Assembly (NCBI RefSeq): GCF_000223215.1
Contig: NC_017243.1
Coordinates: 496,001-560,000 of the forward strand
Reading direction: 5' to 3'
DNA length: 64,000 nucleotides
Source of the DNA: Brachyspira intermedia PWS/A
Lineage (GTDB): Bacteria; Spirochaetota; Brachyspiria; Brachyspirales; Brachyspiraceae
A model generated the notes under the pieces. It saw nothing but the letters and a program-made list of their open reading frames with translations, ran no database searches and was not told the origin of the DNA. A program made the position numbers and the translations under genes. Shown piece by piece: positions 22,819-62,900 of this stretch. Numbering within the stretch: position 1 is the stretch's first letter; every line of letters starts with the position of its first letter.

Positions 22819-23060
22819 AAGTGCGAGCCGCACCACCAACCCGCACGGTATCGCTTATTCTTATCGAATGCCAACTATACGTGCAGCTGATTACTTATTA
22901 TTATACAAAAAACAAACAATTTATTTTACATATAAAACCTACTTTCTAAAAAGGAATAGTATTTTATACTATTAATAAATCAAAATTACATTCATAAATA
23001 AGTCAAAATTGACAAAATATAATTGTTTAGGTATATACTAAAAATTTTTAAGTTTATAAA
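22819..23060. repeat. BIR repeat fragment with a two-way promoter module
   Basis: This 404-base gap (22755-23158) holds the ATPase promoter, a GC-richer stretch at 22820-22880, and an interior resembling other BIR copies (the part after TTTTACATATAAAAC). A full end module lies at 23009-23060: TTGACA (23009-23014), 17 bases, TATATA (23032-23037), 17 bases, then TATAAA in place of TGTCAA. The second arm is thus degenerate. The terminator of secF follows. Confidence 0.6.
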
Positions 23061-23101
23061 AAATTATTTTTATATTGTTATAAAACTTTTATATTGCAAA
23101 T

Positions 23102-23136
23102 AAAAAGAGTATACATTATAAATGCATACTCTTTTT
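23102..23136 (-). terminator. Rho-independent terminator of yajC-secD-secF
   Basis: AAAAAGAGTATACAT pairs with ATGCATACTCTTTTT with one mismatch around a short AT loop, just after the secF stop. Confidence 0.85.
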
Positions 23137-23158
23137 ATTGTTTATTTGTAATTTTATT

Positions 23159-24082
23159 TTAGTCTTTTTTAGTTTTCATAAATAGTATTAAAAGCCCGCT
23201 TGCTATGAAGTTACTAGCATAAGTACCTATAACAACACCGCAGAAGAATGTAAATGCAAAATCATAAAGTATGAATCCGCCCCATATCATAATGGCAAGT
23301 GCAGCAAGTAGGGTAGAAATACTAGTGATTATTGTTCTTCCTACAACATTATTCAAACTTATATTGACAATCTCTTTGAAAGGTTTCTTTGAATCAGCAT
23401 TCTCTCTTATTCTGTCGAATACTACTATGATGTCGTTGATTGTATAGCCTATCAAAGTAAGCATTGATGAAAGAACTAATACAGAAAACTCTTTATTTAA
23501 GAAAAGAAGTATACCGAATACTATAACAACATTATGTATAAGAGTAATTATTGCAGGAAAAGCATATCTGTAATTAAATCTTATAGTAATGTATATCATT
23601 ATGATAATCCAAGATACGATTATCAAAATGAATGCCAATTTTAAGTTGTCAGCAGATACTACACCGCTTATGATGTTGCTTCCTATTAACCTAACTTTTT
23701 CCTGAGTATATTTATCATAAAGAACCTGCATAGCTCTGTCGGATTCTTCATTAGAACCTCTGAATCTTAAAAGGAAAGCATTTACATTGTCAGCACCTTC
23801 AAGTTCCTGTATATTAACAGTCTCTGTTCCGAAATTATTATATAAAGCTCTTATTTCAGCAATATTAATTACTTCAGGATTATCTATCTGTACTTTTAAT
23901 TCAACACCGCCTGCAAAGTCAATACCCATATTAAAGCTGTTTGTAGTAAGTTTGTTTATAAATAATGCTATAGAAGCTATAAACAATATAGATGATACTA
24001 CAGCAGCTATAGGCATAATTTTAACAAACGGTATCTTATTTTTTGTCAAATCATTATTTTCTTTTTTTATTTCTTCACTCAT
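23159..24082 (-). CDS. secF: Protein translocase subunit SecF
   Basis: SecF is the smaller partner of SecD in the RND-type complex that uses the ion gradient to finish protein export. This 307-aa protein has the first membrane segment at about 24-43, the conserved GIDFAGGVELKV (about 53-64), and five further membrane helices including SSMLTLIGYTINDIIVVFDRIREN, a SecF signature. It lies 33 bases after secD and is the last gene of yajC-secD-secF. A Lys/Asp/Asn-rich 20-residue cytoplasmic start precedes the first helix. Confidence 0.95.
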   Translation of the reverse strand: MSEEIKKENNDLTKNKIPFVKIMPIAAVVSSILFIASIALFINKLTTNSFNMGIDFAGGVELKVQIDNPEVINIAEIRALYNNFGTETVNIQELEGADNVNAFLLRFRGSNEESDRAMQVLYDKYTQEKVRLIGSNIISGVVSADNLKLAFILIIVSWIIIMIYITIRFNYRYAFPAIITLIHNVVIVFGILLFLNKEFSVLVLSSMLTLIGYTINDIIVVFDRIRENADSKKPFKEIVNISLNNVVGRTIITSISTLLAALAIMIWGGFILYDFAFTFFCGVVIGTYASNFIASGLLILFMKTKKD

Positions 24083-24115
24083 TTACAAAATCCTATTTAT
24101 TTTTAAGCAGTTATA

Positions 24116-25627
24116 TTAAATAAAGAAGAATCCTGCTTTCTTTACCACTTTGGTACGTATTAATTCTTCATAGATATATCTTGTAATAAATACAGCTGTG
24201 AATAGGTTTATTAAAATACCAAAGAACAAAGTAATAGCAAAACCTTGTACAGGGCCGCTTCCAAATATCCAAAGTATTAAAGCTACAATTATAGTAGTGA
24301 TGTTAGAGTCAAATATTGTGGCAAATGCTCTATCATAACCAGAAATAATGGCATCAGCAACACTAGATTTGATTTTCAATTCATCTTTTATACGCTCAAA
24401 TATAATAACATTGGCATCAACAGCCATACCTATAGTAAGAATAAGTCCGGCTATACCAGGCAATGTTAAAGTAAATCTTAAAGGTGATAATACAGCTATA
24501 ATTAGTACTACGTTCACAAGCATTGCAATAGTTGATAAAACTCCAGATACTCTATATACAGCTATCATAAATATAGCAACTAAAACAGCAGCCATAAGTA
24601 AGGCAGTAGCTCCAGCTTTAACTGAGTCAGCACCTATAGACTGTCCAACAACTTCCTCTTCTACAATACTAACATTAAGAGGCAAAGCACCTTCTTTTAA
24701 TATTCTAGCTAAGTCCTGAGCTTCTTCCAAAGTGAATCTTCCTGTTATTACGCCTCTTCCGCCTCTTATCTCATCATTAATATTAGGAGCACTTATAACT
24801 TTGTCATCTAATACTATAGCAAGCATTCTGTTTTTATTTTGTGCAGTAACTTCAGCAAATTGAGTTGATCCTTCAGCATTAAGTTCAAATTCTACAGTAA
24901 CCTCACCAAATTGACCGCCGCCTACTTGAGCATTTATTAAAGCACTTCCCTCTAATGAAGGTTCTTTATTAACTATAACAGGAGCACCTCTTACTCTTCT
25001 TCCGAAATCATCTTTTTCACTGTAGAAATAAAGCTGTTTTCCATATTCTGGAACTTTAGCTGTATTAGTGAATACTCCCATAAGCATATCATTAGTAGTT
25101 AAAGTAGCTGTAGCTTGTTCATCAACCAAATTGAAAGTTAAAGCTCCCTGACTTAATACAACACTTTTGATTCTGTCTGGGTCTCTTGCTCCGGGAAGTT
25201 CAACAACTACTCTGTCCTCACCTTGCTTTCTTATACCTACTTCACTTACTCCGAATTGGTCTATTCTTCCTCTAAGTCTTGATATAAGTCTTTCCATAGC
25301 ATCATTTTTCTCTTCAGCTGTAAGAGATGATACTGTTCTGTCAAGTCTGTTTGCATACTCTTCAAAATCAGCCTGAAGAACTATTCTTATACCGCCTTGT
25401 AAGTCCAAACCCATATTTACAGATTCGCTTCTTAAACGTTTAAGGGATTGAACATTATCTATTTGTTCTTTAGTATATCCTTTAGCTATCATTTCATCTA
25501 AAGACATATTACTTTCTTCTTTCTTTTCATCAGATGTGAAAAAATACCATCTTACTGTAGGAGTAATAAACCAAGCCATTACACCAAGTCCTATAATGAT
25601 GAATGCTAGTCTTAAATTATGACTCAT
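24116..25627 (-). CDS. secD: Protein translocase subunit SecD
   Basis: The 503-aa protein has an N-terminal membrane helix (about 6-22), the GLDLQGGIRIVLQ signature, the periplasmic P1 domain with RIDQFGVSEVGIRKQG and EGALPLNVSIVEE, and the C-terminal six-helix block including TIGMAVDANVIIFERIKDE. SecD works with SecF to pull exported proteins from the periplasmic side. Length is close to the usual short SecD of spirochaetes and Firmicutes. AGGA lies nine bases before the ATG. Confidence 0.95.
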   Translation of the reverse strand: MSHNLRLAFIIIGLGVMAWFITPTVRWYFFTSDEKKEESNMSLDEMIAKGYTKEQIDNVQSLKRLRSESVNMGLDLQGGIRIVLQADFEEYANRLDRTVSSLTAEEKNDAMERLISRLRGRIDQFGVSEVGIRKQGEDRVVVELPGARDPDRIKSVVLSQGALTFNLVDEQATATLTTNDMLMGVFTNTAKVPEYGKQLYFYSEKDDFGRRVRGAPVIVNKEPSLEGSALINAQVGGGQFGEVTVEFELNAEGSTQFAEVTAQNKNRMLAIVLDDKVISAPNINDEIRGGRGVITGRFTLEEAQDLARILKEGALPLNVSIVEEEVVGQSIGADSVKAGATALLMAAVLVAIFMIAVYRVSGVLSTIAMLVNVVLIIAVLSPLRFTLTLPGIAGLILTIGMAVDANVIIFERIKDELKIKSSVADAIISGYDRAFATIFDSNITTIIVALILWIFGSGPVQGFAITLFFGILINLFTAVFITRYIYEELIRTKVVKKAGFFFI

Positions 25628-25731
25628 ATTATACTGTCCTATTATTATATTTTTTATTTATTCTCTTAATTATTCTTTTTTATCTTCTGCCTGAGCTTTT
25701 TCTAAATCTTCTTTTATTTGATTTTTATCTT

Positions 25732-26103
25732 CTATGGCTTTTTTATCCTCTTTTTCTTTTCCTCTTTTTTAGGAGGGTTTAACATTTCTTCTGTAACTAC
25801 AGCTGATATAGAAGATTTAACTATTTCCATTTTAGTATTTTCACCAACTTTAACTATTGCAACTCTTCCGTTTTCTTTGTCAGAAACATATTCAGCTATT
25901 ATTCCGCCTGCTACTATTACTTTATCGCCTTTCTTTAATTCAGCTATGCTTTGAGCTAATTTTTTTTGCTGTTGTTTTTGTGGTCTTATTAATAAAAAAT
26001 AGAATATAGCAAAGATTACAACCATCATACCTATAGATACTAATGGGCTTCCTCCTGCCTGAGCTTGAGCTGCTCCTTGTGCATATAATGTAGCTGTGAA
26101 CAT
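25732..26103 (-). CDS. yajC: Preprotein translocase subunit YajC
   Basis: The protein has an export-like start, one membrane helix (about 22-40: PLVSIGMMVVIFAIFYFLL), the conserved IRPQKQQQKK motif and the KGDKVIVAGGI beta segment, as expected of YajC, an accessory of SecDF. The reading frame stops at 25732, but a one-base shift in the T5/T6 runs at 25751-25755 or 25764-25769 would continue it with a charged tail (EDKKAIEDKNQIKEDLEKAQ) to a stop at 25670, next to secD. That longer version, about 144 aa, may be the true product. Confidence 0.88.
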   Translation of the reverse strand: MFTATLYAQGAAQAQAGGSPLVSIGMMVVIFAIFYFLLIRPQKQQQKKLAQSIAELKKGDKVIVAGGIIAEYVSDKENGRVAIVKVGENTKMEIVKSSISAVVTEEMLNPPKKEEKKKRIKKP

Positions 26104-26262
26104 TCTTTAATTACCTCTTGATTTTTTAAAATTTTTTTGATATTATATCATATTATCAATAATTTATACTTATGTCAATATTTTTTCTAATTATTTACTA
26201 TATTAAAGTAATATGTTTTAATTTTAATAGTTTGCAAAATTAAAAAAAATATAAAATATAAC

Positions 26263-26291
26263 TTGATTTTTTTTCACTAATATGTTAATAT
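26263..26291 (+). promoter_or_regulatory. Promoter of tRNA-Leu
   Basis: TTGATT (26263-26268), 17 bases and TAATAT (26286-26291); the transcript would start about nine bases before the tRNA. Confidence 0.55.
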
Positions 26292-26306
26292 CTTAAGCAA
26301 CTACCA

Positions 26307-26391
26307 GCTCGGGTGATGGAATTGGTAGACATAGCAGATTTAAAATCTGCTGGTCCTTGTGACCGTGCCGGTTCGATTCCGGCCCCGAGCA
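26307..26391 (+). tRNA. tRNA-Leu (anticodon UAA)
   Basis: The 85-base gene has the acceptor pair GCTCGGG/CCCGAGC, a D arm (TGGAATTGGTAGACA), an anticodon stem GCAGA/TCTGC around TTTAAAA giving anticodon TAA, a long class II variable arm (GGTCCTTGTGACC) and the T arm GGTTCGATTCC. The CCA end is not encoded. It reads UUA, the main Leu codon in this AT-rich sequence. Confidence 0.96.
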
Positions 26392-26466
26392 AATAACAAT
26401 CAATTTATGAAACGGAGTGAATAGAGTTTGTAGTGTAATACCTATAAACTTTTTTGTATATTGAAT

Positions 26467-26667
26467 ATGGTAAATAATCACGATAAACTTTCTAAACAAA
26501 ATATTATTATTCTAGTAATAGGTCTTGCTATTTTTGCTATTAGTTTCCTCTTTATAGCAATGGTAGGACAGCACCCTGAAGGTTTTATGGGATTTTTAGC
26601 ACCTTTTACTATGCTTATTGGTATTGTAACTATAGTAGCTGGATTCCTATACAAATCTAATTCTTAA
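26467..26667 (+). CDS. Small two-helix membrane protein
   Basis: I do not recognise this ~66-aa protein by name. It has a short polar start, then two membrane helices (about 12-34: IIILVIGLAIFAISFLFIAMV, and 43-62: LAPFTMLIGIVTIVAGFLY) joined by a GQHPEGFMGF loop. ATG 26467 or TTG 26461 could start it; neither has a strong ribosome site. It lies 75 bases downstream of tRNA-Leu in the same direction and may share its transcript. Confidence 0.6.
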   Translation: MVNNHDKLSKQNIIILVIGLAIFAISFLFIAMVGQHPEGFMGFLAPFTMLIGIVTIVAGFLYKSNS

Positions 26668-26676
26668 TATAATTAT

Positions 26677-26970
26677 TTAATTCTCATTTCCGAACAATTT
26701 TTGATAAATATTATTTTGTTCTTCCAAATGCACTACAAATCCAACTGCGATCTTATTTTCTGTAGCTTCTATTATTTTTCTAGCTCCTTCTTCTCTGAAC
26801 CCTCCGCATAACTCTATACAGTCAATACCTTCTGATTGTAATTCTTTAGCTATTTTACATGCTTCTTCTATATTTGAAACTCCTATGATTTGTGAAACGC
26901 CATTATGTATAGATGCTTTATCTTTTTTACTGTCAAAAATTTTATCCATTATTAAATAAGCGAATTTCAT
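26677..26970 (-). CDS. DUF6506 family protein
   Basis: This 97-aa protein matches the DUF6506 pattern from memory: the start MKFAYLIM, a central GVSNIEEACKIAKELQSEGI helix, the ELCGGFREEGARKI segment and a VGFVVHLEEQ strand. Such proteins are small, soluble and of unknown function, with an alternating alpha/beta arrangement. GGAG lies eight bases before the ATG. It is monocistronic and convergent with the small membrane protein gene. Confidence 0.75.
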   Translation of the reverse strand: MKFAYLIMDKIFDSKKDKASIHNGVSQIIGVSNIEEACKIAKELQSEGIDCIELCGGFREEGARKIIEATENKIAVGFVVHLEEQNNIYQKLFGNEN

Positions 26971-27029
26971 TTTTATTCTCCAAAAAAGTATTTGCTTTAT
27001 TATAATATAATCGCAAAAAATATAAATAG

Positions 27030-27481
27030 GGTCAGGTGTTAGGCGGAGTTATAAACTCTAAAATTTTTAGTATATACCTAAACAACTATATTTTATCAAA
27101 AATAAATTTATATATTTGTTTTGATATCTGGGGCTTTGCCATTACGAATTACACAGACGTGCCTGAAGCGTACCCGAACAAAGTCCAATACGGTGAGGTA
27201 AGACCCTACTTCTTTTGCCGTAGGCAAGTCCCTACTCAGTGGTGTCCATACGAAGCCCACCTTTGGTGTATGCTAAATTTAGATTATATTTTACATTTAA
27301 TAAATATTTTTAAAATATAAAGTTCTAGCATTTGCGTTTTTCGTGTAGCGTATCCGAAGGATAAAGACTTTGACGAAGTCCGCAGAGCGTGTGCGACAAA
27401 AAAGTAGATAAAATTACATAAAGGCATCAGTTGACAAACTTAAAAATTTTCAGTATATACCAAATAATTATGGTTTGTCAA
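27030..27481 (+). repeat. BIR repeat unit with end modules at both sides
   Basis: This fills the 544-base gap 26971-27514. Left end module: a degenerate first arm (27048-27070), TATATA (27071-27076), 17 bases, then TATCAA (27094-27099). Right end module: TTGACA (27431-27436), 17 bases, TATATA (27454-27459), 16 bases, TGTCAA (27476-27481). The interior is GC-richer than its surroundings and resembles other units near CTGGGGCTTTGCC. I see no credible gene within it. Confidence 0.75.
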
Positions 27482-27514
27482 TTTATATATTTTCAGCTAT
27501 CATAAAAATATTTT

Positions 27515-29479
27515 TTAGTTTAAACTGAAAAATTTCATTAAATCAGCAAGTTTTTCAGTTTCTTTTTCCATATCAATAACTATATCAGCATTAGTTTTTA
27601 CCAAATTGCTATTTTGTTCGGCACTGATATCAACACTATTAACGGCACTTTGAACTTCTCTTGCAGAAGCATCTTGCTGAGTAGAAGATTCAACCATTTG
27701 ACTTACTATATGACTACTTTCTCTAGCTTTATTAGTGATGTCTTCCAAAGCATCCATAGTTTCTTTTATTTTTTTATTTCCATCTTGTATCTTTTCTATG
27801 CTTGTATTAACTATATTCGTAATATTTTTTACAGATTCCTGAGAAGTTTGTGCTAGATTTCTTACTTCAGAAGCTACAACAGCAAATCCTTTTCCTTGTT
27901 CTCCGGCACGTGCTGCTTCTACTGAGGCATTAAGAGCAAGTATATTTGTCTGCATAGCTATATCATCTATCATCTTTGTTATATTTGATATTTCAGATGT
28001 AGCTTTTGTAATATCTTCCATAATAACCATAGATTCTTTTGATAGATTATAACAATGTTCGCTTGAATTTGTAAGCACTTGTATCTTATCATTAGTCAGT
28101 GCTATATCATTAGTAGTTTTATCTATAACTTTTAATGTATTAGTCATAGTTTCATTTATAAGTTTTAAATCATCTCTTTGTTTTTCAGTTCTATTTGATA
28201 AATCTATTGTACCGGCACTTACATTCTTACTTGCATTTTCCATAGTATTAGTAGTGTCCAATATTTCTTTTATTATATTTGATAATTTATTTTGAGTATT
28301 TTGAATAGAATTAAATATCATTCCTATTTCATCTTTTCTTTTGCTTAAAGAGTTATTCTCATCAGGAGTTAAATTGCCACTGCTTAGTTTTTCAGATATA
28401 TGCATAACTTTCAATATAGGATCTATTATACTTTTCTTTATCAAAATATTTATAATAATCAAAAATACTATAATAATAATAACAGCTAATATGCAAGTTA
28501 CAACAGCATTTTTTATGTTTTCTTTTACTATAACAATTTCAGGTATATTTACAAGTAAGGCCAATGAATTATTATTATCTTTTAATGAATCTAATGGTAT
28601 TAAAATATTAAATGTTTTTTGATCATCTATTTTGTTTACGAAAGAATATTTATTATTATTATTTATATTATCAGTTATTTCTTTTGAATGATCTTTATAT
28701 ATATCAGATATTTGTTTTCCGATGTTTTGAGTATTAGTTGCAGCAAGTATAGTACCATTTTGATTAATTAAATATCCAACCATACCATTATTTGTAGATA
28801 TATCAGAAACTATTGAAACTAAATTATCAGCTGAAAAATCGACACCTATCATACCTAAAAATTTACCTGAATTATCTAATATAGGCTCAACTACACTAAC
28901 AGTCAATACAGTTCCTGCATCTGCATAAGTATCATCTTTTTCTACATCACTTATATATAATTGTTTTGTATTTTTAGGTGTAGTATAATAATCAGGATTT
29001 TCATCAAATTCATCTTGATAAACTTTATCATAAGTAACTACATTATCATCATAGAAATATGAAGGACCATATCTTCCATCAACTTCAGAACCATAATCTG
29101 TGTCTATAAACTCATTATCTCTGCCATCAAAAGCATTTTTTTCCCACATTTCATATATTGAAAATAAATTTTTATTATTTTTAAGTGTATCTCCTAAGAT
29201 TATTGCATGCGATTCTCTTGTAACCGTTCCATTTTCTATATCGTTTCTTAATGATGATGACAATGTTCTTAATGTTGATATATATGTGAGCATTTCTAAT
29301 TCTATATCTTTGGCATATGTTGTAATCATATATTCTGTAGATGCATAGCCTTTTCTTTTAGAAGTAGAAATGTTATGCGTTACCATATAAGCAATAACAG
29401 CTACAAACATTATCAATATAGATACTGTAAGAAGTATAAATATTTTAAACTGAAGTCCAATAGATTTTTTATTTTGCAT
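27515..29479 (-). CDS. Methyl-accepting chemotaxis protein with a dCache-like sensor
   Basis: The 654-aa receptor has a first membrane helix (about 12-33), a periplasmic domain of roughly 290 residues with a dCache-like layout (two-lobe pattern including [17 protein letters not shown] and [20 protein letters not shown]), a second helix (about 324-347), a HAMP-like linker and the signalling tip [20 protein letters not shown] followed by [17 protein letters not shown]. dCache domains commonly bind amino acids. It is monocistronic. The ligand is unknown. Confidence 0.94.
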
Positions 29480-29597
29480 AGAATAATCCTATTTATATAA
29501 AAAATTAATTAATATTTAATATACAATAGTTTTATATTTTGTAAAAAGAATATTTGATATTTTTATATTATTTTTACAATTTTATTTAAAAATCAAT

Positions 29598-30637
29598 TTA
29601 TTTAACTCTTTTTATTTTCACTTCAAAACGTTCTTCAACCAAATTAATTAATTCTGGTAATTTTTGTTCAGCAATCATTCTTAATTTTTCTCTTTCTATA
29701 TTTTGTGCCGGAGCTCCAAGCATAATGGAATGAGAAGGTATTTTGACATTTGACATTACAGCAGATCTTCCTCCGAATATTACTCTATCACCTACTGTAA
29801 CATGATCAGCTAATGCCGCTTGTCCGCCTAATATACAATGATTTCCTATTTTAGAACTTCCTGCTATTCCTACCTGAGAAACTATAATAGAATGCTCTCC
29901 TATATCGCAGTTATGTGCTATCTGTACTAAATTGTCTATTTTTACGCCTTCTCTTATTACTGTAGAACCTAATGTGGCTCTGTCTATACAAACATTAGCT
30001 CCAAGCTCAACATCATTTTCTATTACAACATTACCTCTTTGAGGTATTTTCATCTGCTTTCCATTAACTTCAAAGAATCCGAATCCGTCATTTCCTATAA
30101 CAGTAGAAGATCCAATTATAACTCTGTCTTTTACTACACATCTATCATGAATAGTAACATTTGCATATATAGTGCAGTTTTCTCCAATAACTACATTATC
30201 TCCCAAAAATACATTAGCTTCTATAACAGAGCCTTTTCCAATAATTGTATTTTTTCCTATATGAACATTATCACCTATATAGGTATTATCAGATATATTT
30301 ACATTTTCTTTTATTACAGCTGTAGATTCTATAGTGCCAAGCGGATATTTTTTATCTTCAAATAAAAAGTAAAGTAATTTAATAAATGCTTCTTTAGGAT
30401 TATTATGTATCAATGCAGCTTTATTTTTAAAATCTTTTATTTCATTAGCGGTATCTTCTCTTAATATTAATGCATTTGCATTGCTGTTTAATGCAGCTTC
30501 AAGGTATTTGTTATTATCTATGCATACTATGGAGTTTTCTATAATTTCATTGATAGGGGAGAGTGTAGATATTTCTTTATTTTCATCTCCTATTATTTTT
30601 TTGCTTGTATAAAATTAGATATATCTTTTATTTTCAT
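29598..30637 (-). pseudogene. lpxD: UDP-3-O-acylglucosamine N-acyltransferase LpxD, frameshifted
   Basis: LpxD adds the second acyl chain in lipid A synthesis. The beta-helix of hexapeptide repeats is intact from TTG 30413 ([20 protein letters not shown], then the catalytic region [12 protein letters not shown] and the [11 protein letters not shown] segment). The N-terminal uridine-binding part is encoded from ATG 30637 (with GGAG nine bases upstream) but stops after 14 codons at a T7 tract (30596-30602 on the plus strand). With T8 the frame joins into a normal 346-aa LpxD. The gene is essential for lipid A, so a sequencing error or a slippage rescue is likelier than true loss. Fourth gene of the tamB-bamA-ompH cluster. 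Confidence 0.85.
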
Positions 30638-30670
30638 AATAAATTTCTCCATTTATTTTATATATAAAAA

Positions 30671-30706: not shown

Positions 30707-30729
30707 TATTATAAAAAATTATTTTTAAA

Positions 30730-31158: not shown

Positions 31159-31202
31159 TTTTATCTCCTTAGAATTTTAATAAAAATTGTTTTTATATAT
31201 TT

Positions 31203-38450: not shown

Positions 38451-38479
38451 TTGACAAATAATAAAAATAAAAGTATAAT
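38451..38479 (+). promoter_or_regulatory. Consensus promoter of the PTS genes
   Basis: TTGACA (38451-38456), 17 bases and TATAAT (38474-38479), about 38 bases before ATG 38518. Confidence 0.75.
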
Positions 38480-38517
38480 AATCTACCAAATAAAAGTTTA
38501 TTATGTGGAGGTTTCTA

Positions 38518-46141: not shown

Positions 46142-46420
46142 TATATACTAAAAATTTTTAAGTTTGTCAAAATTTAGATTTTTAATTTTATTGTTTGTGG
46201 GGACTAGCCCCCACACCCCCAGTTCTTTTATTGGTATAAAAGAACCAAAAAAACTGCATTTTTAACCCATATTTTAGGTATTACTACACATTTAATACAT
46301 ATTGTAGTAATATAAGGTTGTAGCACTTGCGTTTTTTGCAACTTTTTTGTGCGTCAAAAAAGTTGATAATACATTTACAAAAATATTAAAATTGACAAAA
46401 TGTAATTGTTTAGGTATAAA
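46142..46420. repeat. BIR repeat unit (intergenic)
   Basis: This unit fills the 332-base gap 46090-46421. Left tip TATATA (46142-46147), 17 bases, TGTCAA (46165-46170); right end TTGACA (46392-46397), 17 bases, TATAAA (46415-46420). The interior has TTATTGTTTGTGGGGACTAG, as in the 53.8-kb copy, but the two end arms are swapped relative to it. A hairpin GTTCTTTT/AAAAGAAC lies inside. The right tip touches the NUDIX gene stop. Confidence 0.75.
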
Positions 46421-51413: not shown

Positions 51414-51711
51414 TATATACTGAAAATTTTTAAGTTTGTCAATTTTTATATTGTTCTTTTTCCCGCCGCAAAAAGAACCAAAAAGTGCAAATGTAAAATT
51501 ACTACTAAATCATACTGACTTTGTTTTACATGTATATAAATTATTAATTTAAGATAAAATATAGACATTCGCCTGCCGTATGCACACTTCGTGAGGTGGG
51601 CTGTGACTGCTTCTTTGTGGCAATACTTACAGAACTTCCTCCGGTCGCAAAAGAAGTTGGGTTGCCGTAGGCACGCACAGCGGTGGCAAAACCCCAAATA
51701 TAAAAATAAAA
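51414..51711. repeat. BIR repeat unit, one end lost
   Basis: Tip TATATA (51414-51419), 17 bases, TGTCAA (51437-51442), then a hairpin GTTCTTTTT/AAAAAGAAC and a GC-richer interior up to about 51711 (ACCCCAAATATAAA). No second end module follows; the unit runs into the PepSY-like gene's 3' part. With the short stretch 51238-51413 it accounts for the 306-base gap before 51544. Confidence 0.65.
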
Positions 51712-52221
51712 CATAAATTTATTTTTTAAGAATCTAATATTTTTATAAAAAATTATAGTATTATTTTTAGGCTTTTTTGTTTTTAAAATATTTCCGTTAT
51801 GGTCTATATAAATATAATATGCATCATCTACTTTAAACTCATAGCCTTTGCTTCTTTTGTATATATTGTTTATGCTTGTATATTTGTTTTTTATGATATT
51901 CATAATTTTACTGTCAATAAATTTTTCTGCTGTACTTATCTGTATTATTTTTCTATTTCCTATTATAGAAGTCCATTCGCCTTTTCTGTTAAAGTTTATT
52001 GATGAACCGCCTTTAAAAATAACCATATAATGAGTGGATACGGCAGCACTATATACTTCATATTCGTTAAAGTATGTATTTACGAATTCCTGAATATTAT
52101 TAGGAAGAGAGGTATATGGTACAAACTGAATATTTCTTTCATCATCAAAAAATATAAATGAGGAAGACACTATATATAATATTGATATTAAAAAATAAAA
52201 TTTTATATTATATTTAGTCAT
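51544..52221 (-). CDS. Exported PepSY-like protein with repeat-derived C-terminus
   Basis: From ATG 52221 (AAGGAGG eight bases upstream) the protein begins with a signal peptide or membrane anchor (YFLISILYIVSSSFIFF) and has the same PepSY-like core as the 50679-51062 gene (IFKGGSSINFN-x-KGEWTSIIGN, then YIYIDHNGNILKTKK). Its paralogue ends right after that strand, but here the frame continues about 70 residues (WGFATAVRAYG, GGSSVSIATKK) into the adjacent BIR repeat. The tail is thus likely a read-through into repeat DNA and the real domain ends near residue 155. Confidence 0.7.
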   Translation of the reverse strand: MTKYNIKFYFLISILYIVSSSFIFFDDERNIQFVPYTSLPNNIQEFVNTYFNEYEVYSAAVSTHYMVIFKGGSSINFNRKGEWTSIIGNRKIIQISTAEKFIDSKIMNIIKNKYTSINNIYKRSKGYEFKVDDAYYIYIDHNGNILKTKKPKNNTIIFYKNIRFLKNKFMFYFYIWGFATAVRAYGNPTSFATGGSSVSIATKKQSQPTSRSVHTAGECLYFILN

Positions 52222-53745: not shown

Positions 53746-53793
53746 AAAAAATATAGGCTTTAAATAATAATAAATATTATATTATTTAAAGCC
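53746..53793. terminator. Terminator hairpin, first copy of a 48-bp direct repeat
   Basis: GGCTTTAAATAAT pairs with ATTATTTAAAGCC (13 bp). The whole 48-base block from AAAAAA to GCC is repeated exactly at 54130-54177. This copy serves the MATE gene. Confidence 0.85.
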
Positions 53794-53812
53794 TATAATT
53801 ATATTCTTTTAA

Positions 53813-54125
53813 TATATACCTAAACAACTACATTTTGTCAATTTTAGTTTTTTTAATTTTATTGTTTGTGGGGACTAGCCCCTCCGTTCTGCGTACTTAG
53901 TAACACCCCAACTTCTTTTGTTGCCACATACGTAGTACGCCTGCGGCGAAAGGCTATATTTGACGAAGTCCGCCTTTAGGTGTGCTTAAATTAATAGTTT
54001 ATATTACATGTAAAACAATTTTAGTATGGTTTAGTATTAATTCTATCCTTGCACTTTTTGGTTCTTTTTGCTGCGGGAAAAAGAACAACAAAAAAATTGA
54101 CAAACTTAAAAATTTTCAGTATATA
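53813..54125 (+). repeat. BIR repeat unit, complete (313 bp)
   Basis: Left tip TATATA (53813-53818), 17 bases, TGTCAA (53836-53841); right end TTGACA (54097-54102), 17 bases, TATATA (54120-54125). Both ends therefore carry promoters facing out. Inside are GTGGGGACTAGCCCC and a hairpin GTTCTTTTT/AAAAAGAAC (54059-54085). The unit sits between two exact copies of a 48-bp terminator block and fills most of the 467-base gap 53739-54205. Confidence 0.85.
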
Positions 54126-54129: not shown

Positions 54130-54177
54130 AAAAAATATAGGCTTTAAATAATAATAAATATTATATTATTTAAAGCC
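54130..54177. terminator. Terminator hairpin, second copy of a 48-bp direct repeat
   Basis: Identical to 53746-53793. This copy lies just after the stop of the leftward cbiB gene and can act as its terminator. Confidence 0.85.
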
Positions 54178-54205
54178 ATATTTATATTTTTATTTATTAT
54201 ATTGT

Positions 54206-55183: not shown

Positions 55184-55227
55184 GTTATTTATTCCAATAA
55201 AAGTTATTACTAATAATCATCGTAAAA

Positions 55228-55812
55228 TTATAACTTTTCTATAATATTTATATTATTTTTATCATCTATTTCTGCATAATATCCGCATCCGTTTTGTAAT
55301 AGATAATCATAGAAATTCAGTTTTTGCTTATCATATCTGCTGAATATTGACATAATAACGCCGCCATGAGTAACTACAGCAGTATAATCTAAATTATTTT
55401 TTTTCATATTTTCTATAATATAGAGGTATGCATTTTCTGTTCTTCCAAAGAAATGTTCAGCAGTTTCACCATTTGGTACATTGCTTTTCCAATTAGTTCT
55501 AAAGAATTCTTTATAATATGGATTATTTTTTAATTCATCATGATTCTTACCTTCAAAATCTCCAAAGCATCTTTCTTTTAAATTATCTATAACCTCTTTG
55601 TTCATATCATTAAAATATATATCAGCTGTTTCTAAACACCTTTTCATAGGGCTGCAATATAATTTTTGAACAGGTTTATATTTTTCTACTATATTTTTTT
55701 TATTAATTAATACTTCTTTACCAGATTCAGACAATGGAGCATCGGTAGAACCAAGCCATCTTCCTTCAGCATTTAATTGAGTTTGACCATGGCGTATAAA
55801 TAGTATTTTCAT
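55228..55812 (-). CDS. Histidine phosphatase, likely CobC-type alpha-ribazole phosphatase
   Basis: The 194-aa protein begins ILFIRHGQTQLNAEGRWLGS, the RHG catalytic motif of the phosphoglycerate mutase superfamily, with the later ERCFGDFEGK and VTHGGVIM (second histidine). CobC removes the phosphate from alpha-ribazole-5'-phosphate in B12 synthesis; adjacency to cbiB supports that choice over a general phosphatase. It is divergent from the pyrophosphatase gene. Confidence 0.85.
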   Translation of the reverse strand: MKILFIRHGQTQLNAEGRWLGSTDAPLSESGKEVLINKKNIVEKYKPVQKLYCSPMKRCLETADIYFNDMNKEVIDNLKERCFGDFEGKNHDELKNNPYYKEFFRTNWKSNVPNGETAEHFFGRTENAYLYIIENMKKNNLDYTAVVTHGGVIMSIFSRYDKQKLNFYDYLLQNGCGYYAEIDDKNNINIIEKL

Positions 55813-55992
55813 GTGATACTCCGATTATAATATTTTATTTCTTAGACAATACTAACATTATAATAATAGTTTATTTTTTTTCAATAATACAATGTAATTT
55901 TTTAATTATAATGTATTAAATAATAGTGTTTTTATTTTTTAAAAAATTATAATATAGGTGCGGTATGTATAAAAAATACTGTGAAAAATGAA

Positions 55993-56021
55993 TTGACAAT
56001 TTCTCTAATTTGGGTTATAAT
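55993..56021 (+). promoter_or_regulatory. Consensus promoter of the membrane pyrophosphatase gene
   Basis: TTGACA (55993-55998), exactly 17 bases, TATAAT (56016-56021), both perfect. ATG 56068 follows about 40 bases after the predicted start. Confidence 0.85.
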
Positions 56022-56067
56022 CAATAACTGTACAAAATCTAACAAAATTCAAAAATAGGGTATGTGT

Positions 56068-58464
56068 ATGAATTATGAAATATTAGCTGAAAACGCCCGC
56101 TTTTTTACAATATCAGCGGCAATCTTAACATTAGCGTTTGCCTTCTATTTCTATAAATGGATGCGTAAACAAGATGAAGGTAATGACACTATGAAGGAAA
56201 TAGCTTCACATGTTCGTTCCGGTGCTATAGCTTATCTTAAACAACAGTATAAAGTTATAGCTTTCTTCTTTGCTGGAGCTTTCATTATTTTTGCTATTCT
56301 TTCTTATGCATTAAAAGTTCAGAACCCTTTCATTCCTATAGGTTTTTTAACAGGCGGTTTTTTCTCAACTTTGTCTGGTTTCTTAGGTATGAAAACTGCT
56401 ACTTATGCATCAGCTAGAACTGCTAATGCTGCTAGTAAATCTTTAAATGAAGGTTTAACTATCGCTTTCCGTTCTGGTGCTGTTATGGGACTTACTGTTG
56501 TAGGTCTTGCTTTATTTGACATTTCATTATGGTTTATAGTATTAAATGTATGGCTTGATAATAGTTTATTTGGCACAGACTTTTTAAACTTAGCTGCTAC
56601 AGGTATAACTAAAGGTACTGCTGAATATACTGCTGCTAAAATGCACTTTGTAACTACTACAATGCTTAGCTTTGGTGTAGGTGCTTCTTTCCAAGCTTTA
56701 TTTGCTCGTGTTGGAGGCGGTATATTTACTAAAGCTGCTGACGTAGGTGCTGACTTAGTAGGTAAAGTTGAAGCAGGAATACCTGAAGACGACCCAAGAA
56801 ACCCTGCTGTTATAGCTGACAACGTAGGTGATAACGTAGGTGACGTTGCTGGTATGGGTGCTGACCTTTATGAATCTTATGCAGGTTCTATACTTGCTGC
56901 TATGAGTTTAGGTTCTGCTGCTTTCGGATATATTAATCCTGATGTTAGTCCAATATTTGCTGTATCTCTTCCTATGATACTTGCTGCTATTGGTACTCTT
57001 TCTTCTATTATAGGTGTATTCTTCGTTAAAACTAAAGAAGGTGCTACTATGGGAGAATTATTAAAGTCTTTAAGAGTTGGTGTTTATGTAAGTAGTGCTA
57101 TAATCATTATCGTTGCTTTCTTACTTGTAAAAGCTTTACTTCCAAACAATTTGGGATTATTCGTTTCTATAATTGTTGGACTTATAGCTGGTAACGTAGT
57201 TGGTTTCTTTACTGAATACTATACTGCTGCTGAATACAGACCTACTCAATGGGTAGCTGAACAATCTAAAACAGGTCCTGCTACAGTTATAATCGGCGGA
57301 CTTGCTGTAGGTATGCAATCTACTTTAATACCTGTTGTTACAGTAGTTATATCTATAATATTAGCATTCGGATTCGCAGGCGGTTTCGGTGCTGAAGCTT
57401 CTTCATTCTCTCAAGGTTTATATGGTATTGCTTTAGCTTCTGTTGGTATGTTATCTACTTTAGGTATTACATTAGCTACAGATGCTTATGGTCCTATAGC
57501 TGACAATGCCGGCGGTAACGCTGAAATGTCAGGACTTCCTGAAAGTGTTAGAGAAAGAACAGATGCTTTAGACTCTTTAGGTAACACTACTGCTGCTACT
57601 GGTAAAGGTTTCGCTATTTGTTCTGCTGCTTTAACTGCTATGGCTTTAATTGCTGCTTATATTGAGGAAATTAAAACTTCTTTAGGAAGAATGATCAATA
57701 CTGGTAATCTTACTTCTATAGATATAGGTACTGTTCAATATACTGCTAACAGTGCTAAAGAATTGTATGACAAAGTTGTTTATAGTTTAGGTATGAATGA
57801 GTTTATGAATGCTTTCAATATTCACTTAATGAACCCTAAAGTATTAATAGGTATATTTATTGGTGCTATGTTAGTATTCTTCTTCTGTGCTTTAACTATG
57901 AAAGCTGTTGGACGTGCTGCTGCAGGTGTTGTAGAAGAAGTTAGAAGACAGTTCAGAGAGATTAAAGGTTTATTAGCTGGCGATAAAGGCGTAAAAGCTG
58001 ATTATGAAAAAGCAGTTCAAATCTGTACTAAATCAGCTCAGAAAGAAATGATTGTTCCTTCTGTACTTGCTATAATCGTACCTGTTGTAGTTGGTTTCTT
58101 ATTCGGAGTACCTGCTGTTATAGGTATGTTAGTTGGAGGATTAACTGCTGGATTTGCTATGGCTGTTATGATGTCTAATGCTGGCGGTGCTTGGGACAAT
58201 GCTAAAAAATACATCGAAGCTGGTAATTTAGGTGGTAAAAAAATAATTGATCCAAAAACAGGAGAAAAAATTACTAACCCTAACCATGCTGCTGCAGTTA
58301 TAGGTGATACAGTTGGTGACCCATTCAAAGATACTTCTGGACCTTCTATCAACATTCTTATCAAATTAATGAGCTTGATAAGTGTTGTATTCGCTGGTGC
58401 TATAGTTGCTTTCTCACCAAAAATTCAAGCAATATTAGGTATCGCTGATCAAATTATTAAGTAA
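56068..58464 (+). CDS. hppA: Membrane-bound K+-dependent Na+/H+-translocating pyrophosphatase
   Basis: The 798-aa protein has the many membrane helices of V-type pyrophosphatases and their catalytic signatures: DVGADLVGKVEAGIPEDDPR, then NPAVIADNVGDNVGDVAGMG, GNTTAATGKGFAI and GDTVGDPFKDTSGPS. The Ala in TTAATGKG (Lys in K+-independent forms) marks a K+-dependent enzyme. It couples pyrophosphate hydrolysis to Na+ or H+ export at the cytoplasmic membrane, saving ATP in anaerobes. ATG 56068 is preferred: AGGG lies seven bases upstream, whereas ATG 56062 is too close. A terminator follows at 58490-58529. Confidence 0.95.
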   Translation: MNYEILAENARFFTISAAILTLAFAFYFYKWMRKQDEGNDTMKEIASHVRSGAIAYLKQQYKVIAFFFAGAFIIFAILSYALKVQNPFIPIGFLTGGFFSTLSGFLGMKTATYASARTANAASKSLNEGLTIAFRSGAVMGLTVVGLALFDISLWFIVLNVWLDNSLFGTDFLNLAATGITKGTAEYTAAKMHFVTTTMLSFGVGASFQALFARVGGGIFTKAADVGADLVGKVEAGIPEDDPRNPAVIADNVGDNVGDVAGMGADLYESYAGSILAAMSLGSAAFGYINPDVSPIFAVSLPMILAAIGTLSSIIGVFFVKTKEGATMGELLKSLRVGVYVSSAIIIIVAFLLVKALLPNNLGLFVSIIVGLIAGNVVGFFTEYYTAAEYRPTQWVAEQSKTGPATVIIGGLAVGMQSTLIPVVTVVISIILAFGFAGGFGAEASSFSQGLYGIALASVGMLSTLGITLATDAYGPIADNAGGNAEMSGLPESVRERTDALDSLGNTTAATGKGFAICSAALTAMALIAAYIEEIKTSLGRMINTGNLTSIDIGTVQYTANSAKELYDKVVYSLGMNEFMNAFNIHLMNPKVLIGIFIGAMLVFFFCALTMKAVGRAAAGVVEEVRRQFREIKGLLAGDKGVKADYEKAVQICTKSAQKEMIVPSVLAIIVPVVVGFLFGVPAVIGMLVGGLTAGFAMAVMMSNAGGAWDNAKKYIEAGNLGGKKIIDPKTGEKITNPNHAAAVIGDTVGDPFKDTSGPSINILIKLMSLISVVFAGAIVAFSPKIQAILGIADQIIK

Positions 58465-58489
58465 TCAATTTTATTTAATATAAATTATA

Positions 58490-58529
58490 AGCTGTCTGAC
58501 TTCAGTAAAAGGTTAGACAGCTTTTTTTA
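58490..58529 (+). terminator. Rho-independent terminator of hppA
   Basis: AGCTGTCTGAC (58490-58500) pairs with GTTAGACAGCT (58512-58522) with one G-T pair, then seven Ts. The rest of the 325-base gap (58465-58789) holds only the next gene's promoter and a long AT-rich leader. Confidence 0.88.
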
Positions 58530-58600
58530 CTTTAACTTCTTTTTTGTAAAAAAATTTTTAGAAAAATGTGTAAAAGTAAAAAAATATTTTAGATTATTTA

Positions 58601-58628
58601 TTGACTTTATCATATTTTAATTTATAAT
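58601..58628 (+). promoter_or_regulatory. Promoter of the second chemoreceptor gene
   Basis: TTGACT (58601-58606), 16 bases, TATAAT (58623-58628). The leader before ATG 58790 would be about 155 bases, unusually long; no riboswitch is recognised in it. Confidence 0.5.
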
Positions 58629-58789
58629 CATCTTCTATTCAAAGTTTAAATATATCAATTTTTTGTTTTAATGATGAAACTATTATAATAATAGATACTA
58701 TATTTTTATTTTATAACCTTTGTTAAAAATTTTTATTATCAATATTACATATTTATAGAAAATAAAATAATTTTATAAAAGGAAAATAT

Positions 58790-60622
58790 ATGAAAAAAAT
58801 ACATTCTATAAGGGTACAAATGCCTATAGCCATAAGCATTTTAAGTACATTTTTTTTAGTCTTGATAGTAGCAATATTATCATACAGATCACATGCAATA
58901 GTTAAAGATTCAACATTATCCGGTTTTGATAATACAGTAAATGGTTATAAAGATATGCTAGATGTTTGGCTTGATGACAGCAGAAATTTAATAAAAACTT
59001 ATGCTGTATCTCCTATAGTGAGAAATTATTTAATGGACAGAACTATCGATATAAGATCTACTCTTACTGAATTTGAAGCAATCAATGAATATGTACTTGA
59101 TATAGGTATAACAGATACGAATGGAATAATTTTAGATAATGTTAATAATGTGAAAATAGGTGAAAATATAACAACAGTAAGACCTAATATTTTAAATATA
59201 TTAAAAAGAAATAATAATGAAGCATCTTTTGATGACAGTATACAAAAATCAAGTGCTGATAAAAAATGGTCATTAGCAGTTATTTGCGGAGTGAAATATA
59301 ATGGGGAATATGTTGGAAATGTATATATGATTATGGATTGGGAGGATTTAGCTGCTAAACTTCAGGAATTAAAATTGCCTGAAAGAACTAGAATATTTGC
59401 TATTGATGATAATAATATAGTTGTATTAGATACTAAAAATGAGATTAATACAGAAGCTAATGAGGCATATACTTCAATAATAAAAGGAGGAATGCCTTCT
59501 GGAGTTATGAATTATATATCTTCCGTAAGCAATGATCCTAGAACAGCAGTTTACAGCAGACTTATGAATTTGGATTGGTATTTGATTATGGCTATGGACG
59601 ATAAAGTTATTTATAAGGCTAATAACGATTCTATAATGATATCTATTATTATATGTATTTTATCTATTGTTTTCATAAATATATTTGCTTTTCTTTATAT
59701 TAAAAAAGTTACACATCCTCTTAAAGTTTTAATGGATCATGCTACCAGCATATCAGAAGGAAATATAACTACTCATATTAAAGATAATTATGGAAAAGAT
59801 GAATTCGGACAATTAGAAAAAGTATTTGATGTTATGAGTAACAAATTAGCTGAGGTTGTTTCTAGTGTTAATGATGCTTCAAGAGAAATAATGACAGCAG
59901 CACAAAGTATGATGGAAAGTAGTAATGAATTATCTGTAAGAACTGATTCACAATCATCTAGTTTGGAGGAAACAGCAGCAAGTATTGAAGAGATGGTTTC
60001 TAATATAAAAACTTCTGCTGAAAAATCTTTGCTTGGAAAAAATATGATGTCGGAATCTATGCAGTATATAGAAGATGCAGCAAATATAATTGCACAAACT
60101 GCTTCTAATATAGAAGATGTTTATCAAGCCAGTGAGAAGATAAAAGATATTACAAAGATTATTGAAGACATTGCTTTTCAAACTAATATATTAGCTCTTA
60201 ATGCTTCAGTAGAGGCAGCACGTGCAGGAGATCAAGGAAAGGGATTTGCGGTTGTTGCTTCTGAGGTTAGAAACCTTGCTCAAACTACTCAGGCTTCTGT
60301 TAAAGATATAACTGAATTGGTTGATAATACTTCACAAAAAATTGATACAGCCACTCGAACAGCAAAACAATCTCAAGAAATATTTGTGGACTTACAGAAT
60401 AAAGTATCTGATACTTCTAAATTAATGGAAACTATTACATCAAATGCTTTGGAACAAGAATCAGGAACTAATCAAATAAGTGTGGAAGTAAATAATATGG
60501 AATCTGCTACAACTCAGAATGCTGCTTTAGCTGAAAACTCAAATGAAATTTCAAAGAGTTTAGTTGAAAAAGCAGAGTTTTTAGAAAGAAGTATTGAGTT
60601 TTTTAAGATTTCACATAGCTAA
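58790..60622 (+). CDS. Methyl-accepting chemotaxis protein with Cache-type sensor
   Basis: The 610-aa receptor has a membrane helix at about 11-32, a periplasmic Cache-like region of about 245 residues ([36 protein letters not shown]), a second helix near 280-302, a HAMP domain ([19 protein letters not shown]) and the signalling tip [20 protein letters not shown] followed by [17 protein letters not shown]. It detects an unknown small molecule. AAAGGAAA is the ribosome site. It is monocistronic with a terminator that shares sequence with that of hppA. Confidence 0.93.
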
Positions 60623-60642
60623 TTTTGTATATTATAAATATA

Positions 60643-60679
60643 AGCTGTCTGACTTTATTTTAGTTAGGCAGCTTTTTTA
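60643..60679 (+). terminator. Terminator of the second chemoreceptor gene
   Basis: AGCTGTCTGACT (60643-60654) pairs with AGTTAGGCAGCT (60662-60673) with two G-T pairs, then Ts. The left arm is the same 11-mer as in the hppA terminator. Confidence 0.85.
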
Positions 60680-60834
60680 TTTAACTATAATTACTTTTAC
60701 TATACAATAAATATAAAACAATGGTAATTTAGTATTTGTCTATGATACTAATCATACTTAATATTATTAATTTTAGGTATTTACGATATTATTTTTGTTT
60801 TGTTATTTTTAATATAAAGTTTTTTGGATTTATT

Positions 60835-61596
60835 ATGAAGTTTGTGAAATATTTTTTATTTGTAAACATTTTAATTATAACTATTACATATAGTGCATTT
60901 GCTAGTTTAGAGATAAATTTTCAAGGACATTATGGAATTGCTTTTCCGTTTAATTCTATAAAAGTAAATGATAATTATAAAAATACTATTTATGACAGCG
61001 TTAAAGGTTCTTTAGGTTTTGAAGGAGCTGTATTTTTCCAAATAGGAAATTATTTTAAATTATTTGAAGATGATTATACAAGTATTATTAAAGGTGTGAG
61101 TTTATTTGGAGATATTGGTTTTAGTATTAATGCTTTGATGTCTGATTATAAAGAAAATAATAGAAAATATACAGAGATACTTGGATTTTATTCTATGATG
61201 GTTGGAGCTACTGTTAAATTAAATTTCAGTAAAATGTCTATAGGGTTTGGTACAGGAATAATAGCTCCTTTATATGCTATGGAATCTTCAAGTAAATACG
61301 GAGGGGTTATAGCTTCACCTAATTTGGATAATTGGAATGTTAATGATATGAGAAACCTATTTAAAGCTCCTATAATGCCTTATATAAAACTTACAGTAGA
61401 AGGATTTTTATATTTAGTTCCTAATTTTGCTGTTACTGTAGGAGGTTATATTATGTATAATTTTGGTATGCAGTATAAAACTGATGTTGTTAATAATAAT
61501 TTAGGCGGCAATATATATAATCAATATAATTTCTCTGATCTTTCTATTGGCTTAATTTTAGGTATATCTTTTGGAAGAAGCGACGGATATAATTAA
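60835..61596 (+). CDS. Probable outer-membrane beta-barrel protein
   Basis: From ATG 60835 (GGA upstream) the 253-aa protein has a signal peptide (KFVKYFLFVNILIITITYSAFA) and then an alternating beta-strand pattern with many Gly, Tyr and Phe residues (GDIGFSINALM, KLNFSKMSIGFGTGIIAPLY, VGGYIMYNFGM, LSIGLILGISFG), ending in aromatic-rich strands as in small spirochaete outer-membrane proteins. The function is unknown. The longer frame beginning at 60736 would put a second hydrophobic stretch before the signal peptide and is unlikely. Confidence 0.75.
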   Translation: MKFVKYFLFVNILIITITYSAFASLEINFQGHYGIAFPFNSIKVNDNYKNTIYDSVKGSLGFEGAVFFQIGNYFKLFEDDYTSIIKGVSLFGDIGFSINALMSDYKENNRKYTEILGFYSMMVGATVKLNFSKMSIGFGTGIIAPLYAMESSSKYGGVIASPNLDNWNVNDMRNLFKAPIMPYIKLTVEGFLYLVPNFAVTVGGYIMYNFGMQYKTDVVNNNLGGNIYNQYNFSDLSIGLILGISFGRSDGYN

Positions 61597-61608
61597 AAAT
61601 CTATAATT

Positions 61609-61636
61609 TTGACAAATTAATTTTTTTCTGTATAAT
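61609..61636 (+). promoter_or_regulatory. Promoter of the SorC-type regulator
   Basis: TTGACA (61609-61614), 16 bases, TATAAT (61631-61636), about 30 bases before ATG 61666. Confidence 0.75.
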
Positions 61637-61665
61637 AAATTTAAAAATTAATTTGGATAAAATAA

Positions 61666-62598
61666 ATGAATATTTTTGATGATCTAAGCCTTTTATATAC
61701 AATAGCAAAATATTATTATTTAGAAGATTATTCTCAAAGTGATATAGCAAAGATTTTAAATATATCAAGACCTCAAATATCAAGACTTTTAAAAAGGGCT
61801 AGGGAATTAGAAATAGTAAAAATAGAAATATCAATGCCTAATAATCTTCAAGATGAAAATAAATCAGAAAAGATAAAAAAATATTTAGGACTTAAAGATG
61901 TTTTGATAGTTGAAAATTCAAATGATAATAAACTTTTATATGTAAAGTCATCAGAGTATTTATTACCCTTAATAGAAAAGAGTAAAAAAATAGGTATAGG
62001 CTGGAATGAAACCTTATACAATATTTCTATAGAATTAAAATATAATGATTCAGATAAACAAAAAGTATTTTATCCTCTTATAGGAAATTTAGGAAACAAT
62101 AATAATCCTTATTTGCAAATAACGACTATAGTTGATAGATTTGCTGAAAAATTCAATTCAAAAGCCTATTTCAATAATTATCCTGCATTGATAGAAAAAA
62201 AATCTCTTAACAATAATGATCTTGAAAAATTAGAGGAGTTTAAAAAATTTTGGTCTGACTTAGATGTTGCTATAGTAGGTTTAAGCAGCAGGAGAGAATC
62301 TTATCAATCATATATATCAGATATACCAAAAGTAGATAAATTAAATGTTGATGAGATAGAGGGAATAATATTAGGAAGTTTTTTCATGAATAATGGAGAA
62401 ACTTTTAATTATCCTGATAAATATTATGTAAACTCGATAATGCTTTCAGAATTAAAAAAAATTAAAGATATAGTTTGTATAGTTTCAGGAGTAAAAAAAA
62501 TAGATACTATTAAATTTGCAGCTATGAATAAGTATTTTAATATTTTAATTACCGATGAATCTACAGCAGACTCTATAATATCAAATTTTAATTTATAA
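61666..62598 (+). CDS. SorC-family sugar-binding transcriptional regulator
   Basis: The 310-aa protein begins with a helix-turn-helix of the DeoR/SorC sort (YSQSDIAKILNISRPQISRL, about residues 22-41) and continues with the sugar-binding domain of that family, including IGIGWNETLYNIS and the VAIVGLSSRRESY loop. Members respond to a phosphorylated sugar. It lies one BIR repeat away from a sulfatase gene that has repeated half sites at its promoter, so it may control that gene. The ribosome site is weak. Confidence 0.87.
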   Translation: MNIFDDLSLLYTIAKYYYLEDYSQSDIAKILNISRPQISRLLKRARELEIVKIEISMPNNLQDENKSEKIKKYLGLKDVLIVENSNDNKLLYVKSSEYLLPLIEKSKKIGIGWNETLYNISIELKYNDSDKQKVFYPLIGNLGNNNNPYLQITTIVDRFAEKFNSKAYFNNYPALIEKKSLNNNDLEKLEEFKKFWSDLDVAIVGLSSRRESYQSYISDIPKVDKLNVDEIEGIILGSFFMNNGETFNYPDKYYVNSIMLSELKKIKDIVCIVSGVKKIDTIKFAAMNKYFNILITDESTADSIISNFNL

Positions 62599-62900
62599 CA
62601 TATTTAAACAACTATATTTTGTAAATTTTAGTTTTTTCAATTTTATTGTTTGTGGTGGCTTTGCCCCACACCCCCACTTCTTTTGTTGCCACAGGCGAAG
62701 CCCGCCTACGGCGAGAAGCAAAAAGGCTACATTTGGTATTTAATTTAACAAATTATCTTACATATAAGACGATTTTAGTATTATTTAGTACTAATTTTTT
62801 ACACTTGCATTTTTTTGGTTCTTGGCGAAGCCCGCCTGTGGCGTGCGGCGGGAAAAAGAACAACAAAAAAATTGACAAACTCTAAAATTTTTAGTATATC
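62599..62900 (+). repeat. BIR repeat unit between the regulator and the sulfatase
   Basis: Left tip is degenerate (AACATA at 62597-62602, then 17 bases to TGTAAA at 62620-62625). Right end is intact: TTGACA (62872-62877), 17 bases, TATATC (62895-62900). Interior has GTGGTGGCTTTGCCCCACAC and a GC-rich segment GGCGAAGCCCGCC repeated twice. It fills most of the 495-base gap 62599-63093. Confidence 0.75.

Follow-up and report, generated by a model that had tools for sequence, protein, structure and literature searches.

Short intergenic repeats with two unlike ends in Brachyspira intermedia: probable miniature transposable elements of an IS630-type insertion sequence

What are the short repeats that lie between the genes in a 64,000-nucleotide stretch of Brachyspira intermedia PWS/A (contig NC_017243.1, positions 496,001 to 560,000; the whole of this stretch is called the window below), and why do their ends look like promoters that point outward? 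A first-pass annotation of the window took them for non-autonomous mobile elements of the type of miniature inverted-repeat transposable elements (MITEs), which often insert at TA and may switch on neighbouring genes. Our comparison with the host genome (3,308,048 bases in two contigs) and with 26 Brachyspira genomes indicates that the repeats are very probably MITEs of an insertion sequence (IS) of the genus Brachyspira that belongs to the IS630 family (Tc1/mariner superfamily) and has the same two unlike ends. Non-autonomous mobility with insertion at TA-rich sites is borne out by the target sequences, by empty sites in relatives and by an IS630-type parent with both ends, and the switching of neighbouring genes is not supported.

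The elements end in two types of arms, A and B, both of which had been noticed in the window and both of which are real. Read outward, the A arm is TTGACAAAATATADTTGTTTAGGTATA and the B arm TTGACAAACTTAAAAATTTTYAGTATA; read inward, they are 5'-TACCTAAACAACTATATTTTGTCAA and 5'-TACTGAAAATTTTTAAGTTTGTCAA. The A and B ends have only the tip TAC and a TTTGTCAA block in common, which stand at equal distance in the two. The genome-wide search with these end modules, which the annotation had proposed, finds the A arm 133 times (up to three mismatches) and the B arm 127 times (up to two mismatches) in the host genome, reversed control patterns giving no match. The A arm, again with up to three mismatches, is present in 22 of the 26 Brachyspira genomes with 0–282 copies each (controls 0 in all 26), and in the GTDB collection it occurs in at least 120 stretches, of which all 80 listed are from Brachyspira. 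There was no match for the A arm in IMG/VR, and none for one whole element (unit 5, see below) in the plasmid collection; a short A-tip query against phages yielded 48 records with short, weak matches (E 0.2–0.8 in the rows listed), which are taken as chance.

Whole elements were delimited in 309 kb of host sequence. It should be noted that this sequence was picked for holding tips, and per-genome counts thus come only from the whole-genome arm scans. There are 166 tips in it (up to six mismatches). Of its 67 elements, 58 have an A tip at one end and a B tip at the other, five have two B tips and four two A tips. Their length ranges from 164 to 814 bp with a median of 306 bp and is 164–538 bp in most cases; the 814-bp pair has a weak left tip. 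Like MITEs, the elements are short, have terminal inverted repeats and are without transposase coding capacity, and no conserved open reading frame (ORF) was seen by eye in the element sequences listed.

An indication of their origin is a transposase gene between the same ends, which is what the proposed search for a transposase with matching end sequences has brought to light in the form of a decayed IS630-type element. A six-frame search of the 26 genomes with PF13358 (DDE_3) gave one match (E 4.8e-10, 40.5 bits, above the cut-off), which is interrupted by two stops. It lies within the relic at positions 758–1813 of locus L121 in genome G015, between a B tip (one mismatch) and an A tip (three mismatches) that are 1,056 bp apart; the tip scan of this locus was made independently of the domain match, and six other tip pairs 700–5,000 bp apart were looked at as far as their ORFs. 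With the N-terminal 79 amino acids of the relic, 17 plasmid records are found at 32–37% identity; in 13 the label is IS630 family transposase, and four are hypothetical or unlabelled. A DDE_3-type transposase between the parental ends is characteristic of IS630/Tc1-mariner elements.

A DNA search with the relic reveals a second relic (L300) in the same genome, approximately 11 kb from the first, and at least 18 matches each in genomes G024 and G014 (18 candidates scored in each). All 18 in G024 and 17 of the 18 in G014 are located at contig ends (loci L262–L279 and L282–L298). In all 35 the order is the same: transposase sequence from near-identical genes, then an A tip (22 cases) or a B tip (13 cases), then flanking DNA. 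Contigs from short reads break in this manner when several near-identical copies have to be assembled. Junctions between transposase and A tip number 20 in G014 and 10 in G024; G020 and G023 have one each, the remaining 22 genomes, among them the host, have none, and the controls give 0. By eye, the G024 and G014 copies have TTGTCA-N16-TATAAT in front of the transposase gene, whose start is immediately internal to the B tip and whose stop codon falls within TTGACA at the A tip. The ends of the short elements are therefore common to an autonomous transposon, as seen in the L121 relic and in the 35 transposase-bearing contig ends. In G024 and G014 several copies of the parent IS directly adjoin a MITE tip.

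That the elements have moved is apparent from five sites for which both the occupied and the empty state exist among sister genomes, an insertion polymorphism typical of MITEs and the outcome of the comparison with related strains that had been suggested for the window:

Site 1: occupied in G025; empty in G000, G022 and G014, the target in G014 being CCTTTAATATATATTGCC.
Site 2 (unit 4 of the window): occupied in the window and in G022; empty in G025 and G014.
Site 3 (unit 5 of the window): occupied in the window, G022 and G025; empty in G007, G005, G006, G004, G009, G008, G015, G017 and G024.
Site 4 (host position 600,947): empty in G025 and G022.
Site 5 (an element of G009): empty in G008 and G015.

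Two further candidates are not counted as empty, cluster 31 because its target loci are non-orthologous (flank identity 75–80%) and cluster 82 with a gap of −60. The target is rich in TA, 116 of 141 good tips running on to TATATA. Since the tips are TAC...GTA, insertion at TA recreates GTATATAC, so that elements serve as targets for one another: there are 21 tandem junctions among the 166 tips, and 20 of these overlap by exactly one TA.

From these data a mechanism can be proposed. The IS630 transposase would act in trans on the MITEs, recognising the TTTGTCAA block approximately 22 bp inside the tip, and would cut and paste them into TA, which is duplicated. With tips of the form TAC...GTA every insertion would leave GTA-TA-TAC at both ends; since GTATATAC-like sites are the commonest target, the elements would land on each other's ends and tandem arrays would result. 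The outward TTGACA-N17-TATA look would follow from the same organisation, because the recognition block reads TTGACA outward and tip plus target give TATA(TA). Read inward, the TTTGTCAA block (TTGTCA-N16-TATAAT) looks like a promoter for the transposase gene. Outward transcription, if there is any, would then be a by-product dependent on the two flanking bases, and for the common TTTGTCAA/TTGACA block recognition by the transposase suffices as explanation.

In the window six or more intergenic units had been claimed. The six listed are all present, with refined spans, and three solo or degenerate tips adjoin them:

22,790–23,037, minus strand: unit 1, with a decayed B-type left tip at 22,790–22,818 (outward, minus strand) and an intact A right tip at 23,009–23,037.
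23,034–23,060, minus strand: solo B tip relic with two mismatches, right of unit 1, the TATA being common to both.
27,048–27,074, plus strand: solo B tip relic with five mismatches, adjoining unit 2 on the left.
27,073–27,457, plus strand: unit 2, an AB element of 385 bp.
About 27,458–27,483, minus strand: degenerate A-like tip relic, adjoining unit 2 on the right, spotted by eye.
46,144–46,418, minus strand: unit 3, a BA element of 275 bp.
51,416–51,716 (right end approximate), minus strand: unit 4, with an intact B left tip and a decayed right tip; its counterpart in G022 has both tips.
53,815–54,123, plus strand: unit 5, an AB element of 309 bp.
62,599–62,898, plus strand: unit 6, with a decayed A left tip and a B right tip.

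Each tip was said to show TTGACA-N17-TATATA directed outward. This holds for nine of the 12 expected tips (at most one mismatch), two of the nine ending in TATAAA or TATATC, but "each" is too strong, since the left tip of unit 1, the right tip of unit 4 and the left tip of unit 6 are decayed. The motif occurs 11 times in the window, nine of these being unit tips; in 100 shuffles the mean is 2.26 and the largest number 5, none reaching 11.

In the 203 distinct elements from all loci gathered, the interiors are mosaics put together from a small number of left and right modules. They had been described as GC-richer and as containing a conserved hairpin, and both descriptions are correct. Their median GC content is 35.4% versus 27.7% for the window. 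The CTTTTT/AAAAAG hairpin occurs in 33 distinct versions; over its four outer positions, 90 of the 132 cells are paired (1000 shuffles: mean 69, none reaching 90), although at the fourth outer position only in 4 of 33. Alternative stems include CAAC/GTTG, TTC/GAA and CTAC/GTAG. Pairing is thus kept through changes on both sides, which may be due to template switching between the arms or to selection for structure in RNA or DNA.

A second structure is nested in the elements: GC-rich double hairpins with a GAA triloop stand at fixed places in them. For example, a hairpin GGCGAAGCC or CGCGAAGCG is followed by a second short one. The 309 kb contain 110 xyzGAAzyx hairpins whose stem has two or more G/C, versus 11–19 in shuffles, and 78 of the 110 are inside elements; the share of elements in the bases is 6.8%. 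In 38 cases (shuffles 0–1) another hairpin follows immediately, and 31 of these 38 are inside elements. Unit 6 contains two such double hairpins that are missing from its 86% identical counterpart in G022. The double hairpins may move by themselves or may be spread by gene conversion between copies. That they are tiny mobile units of their own, hopping between fixed places of the MITEs and riding on a family that also exchanges and inverts in place, we regard as improbable. They would then be a bacterial counterpart of the GC-rich double-hairpin elements of fungal mitochondria.

The content of a site can change while the site stays occupied. All five sister genomes for which both flanks of unit 3 were compared are occupied at its site, G022 by a nearly identical element (99.7%) and G007, G025, G024 and G023 by different content, in G024 a tandem pair. 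At the place of unit 1, G007 has a different element between the same relics. At the site of unit 6, G025 and G014 carry B-tipped elements in inverted relative orientation; their interiors align inverted with 75% identity over 249 bp, the worn inner part of one tip included. To judge from this alignment the two are best read as one ancestral element that was inverted in place. Free inversion of the interior as a general rule was considered and dropped, the inverted types being partly separate subfamilies.

Do the tips act as promoters? If they did, they would be working outward promoters under selection, and the elements would be cassettes that switch on or tune their neighbours. Indeed, TTGACA-N17-TATA is present at both tips, and the spacer has the same length in A and B arms despite its differing sequence. 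The −35 and the spacing are as in two likely native promoters: exact TTGACA-N17-TATAAT occurs only twice in the window, at 38,451 and 55,993, each a short distance upstream of an ORF (starts at 38,503 and 56,062), which fits the assertion that real promoters in the window have these features. The Correia elements of Neisseria are reported to act in this way (PMC2649163, PMC10969869). But the outer half of the −10 is supplied by the flank, which gives TATATA in 116 of 141 tips and TATAAT in only 2 of 141, and the −35 is overall kept no better than the spacer, the mismatch rates of TTGACA and spacer being 4.2% versus 4.6% in 76 A tips and 7.2% versus 4.2% in 81 B tips. The gene context also speaks against it. 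No intergenic gap could be assigned to 11 of the 57 host clusters; the remaining 46 lie in 21 convergent, 22 co-directional and 3 divergent gaps (simple ORF calls), whereas 31% convergent and 18% divergent are expected by base pairs (binomial P 0.026 each). Of 92 tips, 64 face the 3' end of a gene and 28 the start of one, whereas 43% would be expected to face a start from intergenic base pairs (P 0.007). Finally, the gene beside unit 2 keeps its own TATAAT-containing upstream region, which is present in G007, where the corresponding gap is without the element. Gene context, −35 conservation and the neighbour of unit 2 therefore all fail to support a promoter switch of neighbouring genes, and promoter cassettes are in our opinion an unlikely explanation of the family; weak outward transcription from the tips, perhaps antisense, may occur.

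The changes at unit 3, where five sister genomes with the same flanks hold four different contents, and the inverted interiors in G025 and G014 would also be expected if the repeats were cassettes or invertible switches on which a site-specific recombinase acts at GTATATAC or TTTGTCAA, by in-place inversion and exchange and without transposition. The L module can be read in the same sense: among 119 elements that have both an A and a B tip and in which this module could be scored, it is beside B rather than A in 22. We consider this very unlikely: the empty sites and the IS630 transposase with the same ends favour transposition, the inverted subfamilies diverge in sequence, so that many inversions need not be recent, and inversion or exchange can also come about by homologous recombination between tips or by reinsertion at the same palindromic TA site. 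Scarcely credible is that the elements are structured repeats like REP, ERIC or BOX, kept for a role in RNA or DNA architecture and only incidentally mobile. The covarying stem and the GC-rich hairpins would suit such a role, but presence and absence vary between close relatives, contents at the same site differ, 4 of the 26 genomes have no A-tip match, and covarying arms of DNA hairpins can also come from template switching.

Several observations weigh against our reading of the repeats. No complete intact IS has been assembled, the live copies being deduced from contig ends in two drafts that resemble metagenome bins. In Pfam searches with pieces of the relic the only matches are to helix-turn-helix domains, below the curated cut-offs, and the two later pieces are without a DDE domain. 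The interiors of the MITEs are unrelated to the transposase gene, and the elements are therefore not simple internal deletions of the parent. In the host genome no IS630 transposase is detectable by the searches with PF13358, with the relic DNA or for the junction, because of which the host copies look immobile today. Duplications of TA, TATA and TATATA are inseparable, because TA runs change length by themselves. In A tips TTGACA is marginally better kept than the spacer, and the gene-context test weighted by distance is modest (P 0.026), the count-based Fisher P of 2.8e-6 ignoring gap length. MITEs of an IS630-family element are nevertheless what we hold the repeats to be, with high confidence. 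A search of the host genome for a PF01609 transposase gave no match, and of seven pattern matches to a piece of the transposase in IMG/VR none was confirmed.

Some features beside the elements are to be mentioned. A terminator-like palindrome is found on both sides of unit 5 (53,749–53,800 and 54,131–54,190) only in the host, its relatives having one copy. A large target duplication as its cause is ruled out, because G022 and G025 carry the element without a second terminator; the second terminator is a separate local duplication. An Rfam search of the window at the gathering threshold returned only a tRNA at 26,307–26,391. At 2,600–9,140 of the window there is a long run of direct repeats within coding sequence, with units of 75, 182–213 and 294–429 nucleotides.

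Full-text searches of openly available papers gave no description of this repeat family among the titles listed; for B. pilosicoli, passages of PMC3532143 speak of transposases and insertion sequences and not of these repeats. The family is mobile and genus-wide, parent and MITE together make up a defined transposon system for Brachyspira, and many of the intergenic differences between Brachyspira genomes, as well as many breaks in their assembly, are explained by it. Parallels exist in unrelated phyla with the Correia and RUP repeats, which raises the question of why MITEs of the IS630 type, their arms unlike and their tips shaped like promoters, have succeeded more than once.

The Correia repeat enclosed elements (CREE) of Neisseria are short intergenic MITEs with more than 100 copies and alternative end arms, in which the end holds a −35 and a partial −10 that is completed by the insertion site ("Black promoter") and for which in-place inversion is reported (PMC2649163, PMC10969869). 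The Brachyspira elements are like them in all of these respects. They differ in sequence and phylum, every A-tip stretch listed (80 of at least 120) being from Brachyspira and not of the neisserial sequence family, and in length (median 306 bp versus 104–108 or 153–157 bp); they are moreover modular and lie for the most part downstream of genes, and their ends recur on a parent IS that was found. RUP of Streptococcus pneumoniae has ends that resemble IS630-Spn1 and is over-represented between convergent genes, which is read there as a sign of parasitic elements (PMC3049150); the IS630-type ends and the preference for convergent gaps are as in Brachyspira. RUP is, as described there, a simple unit of 107 bp, whereas the Brachyspira elements are mostly 164–538 bp long with two unlike ends and mosaic interiors. 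ISY100 and the IS630-Tc1-mariner group are described as having a single transposase gene, imperfect inverted repeats and a duplicated TA, with approximately 24–30 bp of end sequence as sufficient (PMC2170065). The Brachyspira parent likewise has a single transposase gene between imperfect inverted repeats; unlike those of ISY100, its A and B ends are alike only in the tip TAC and the TTTGTCAA block.

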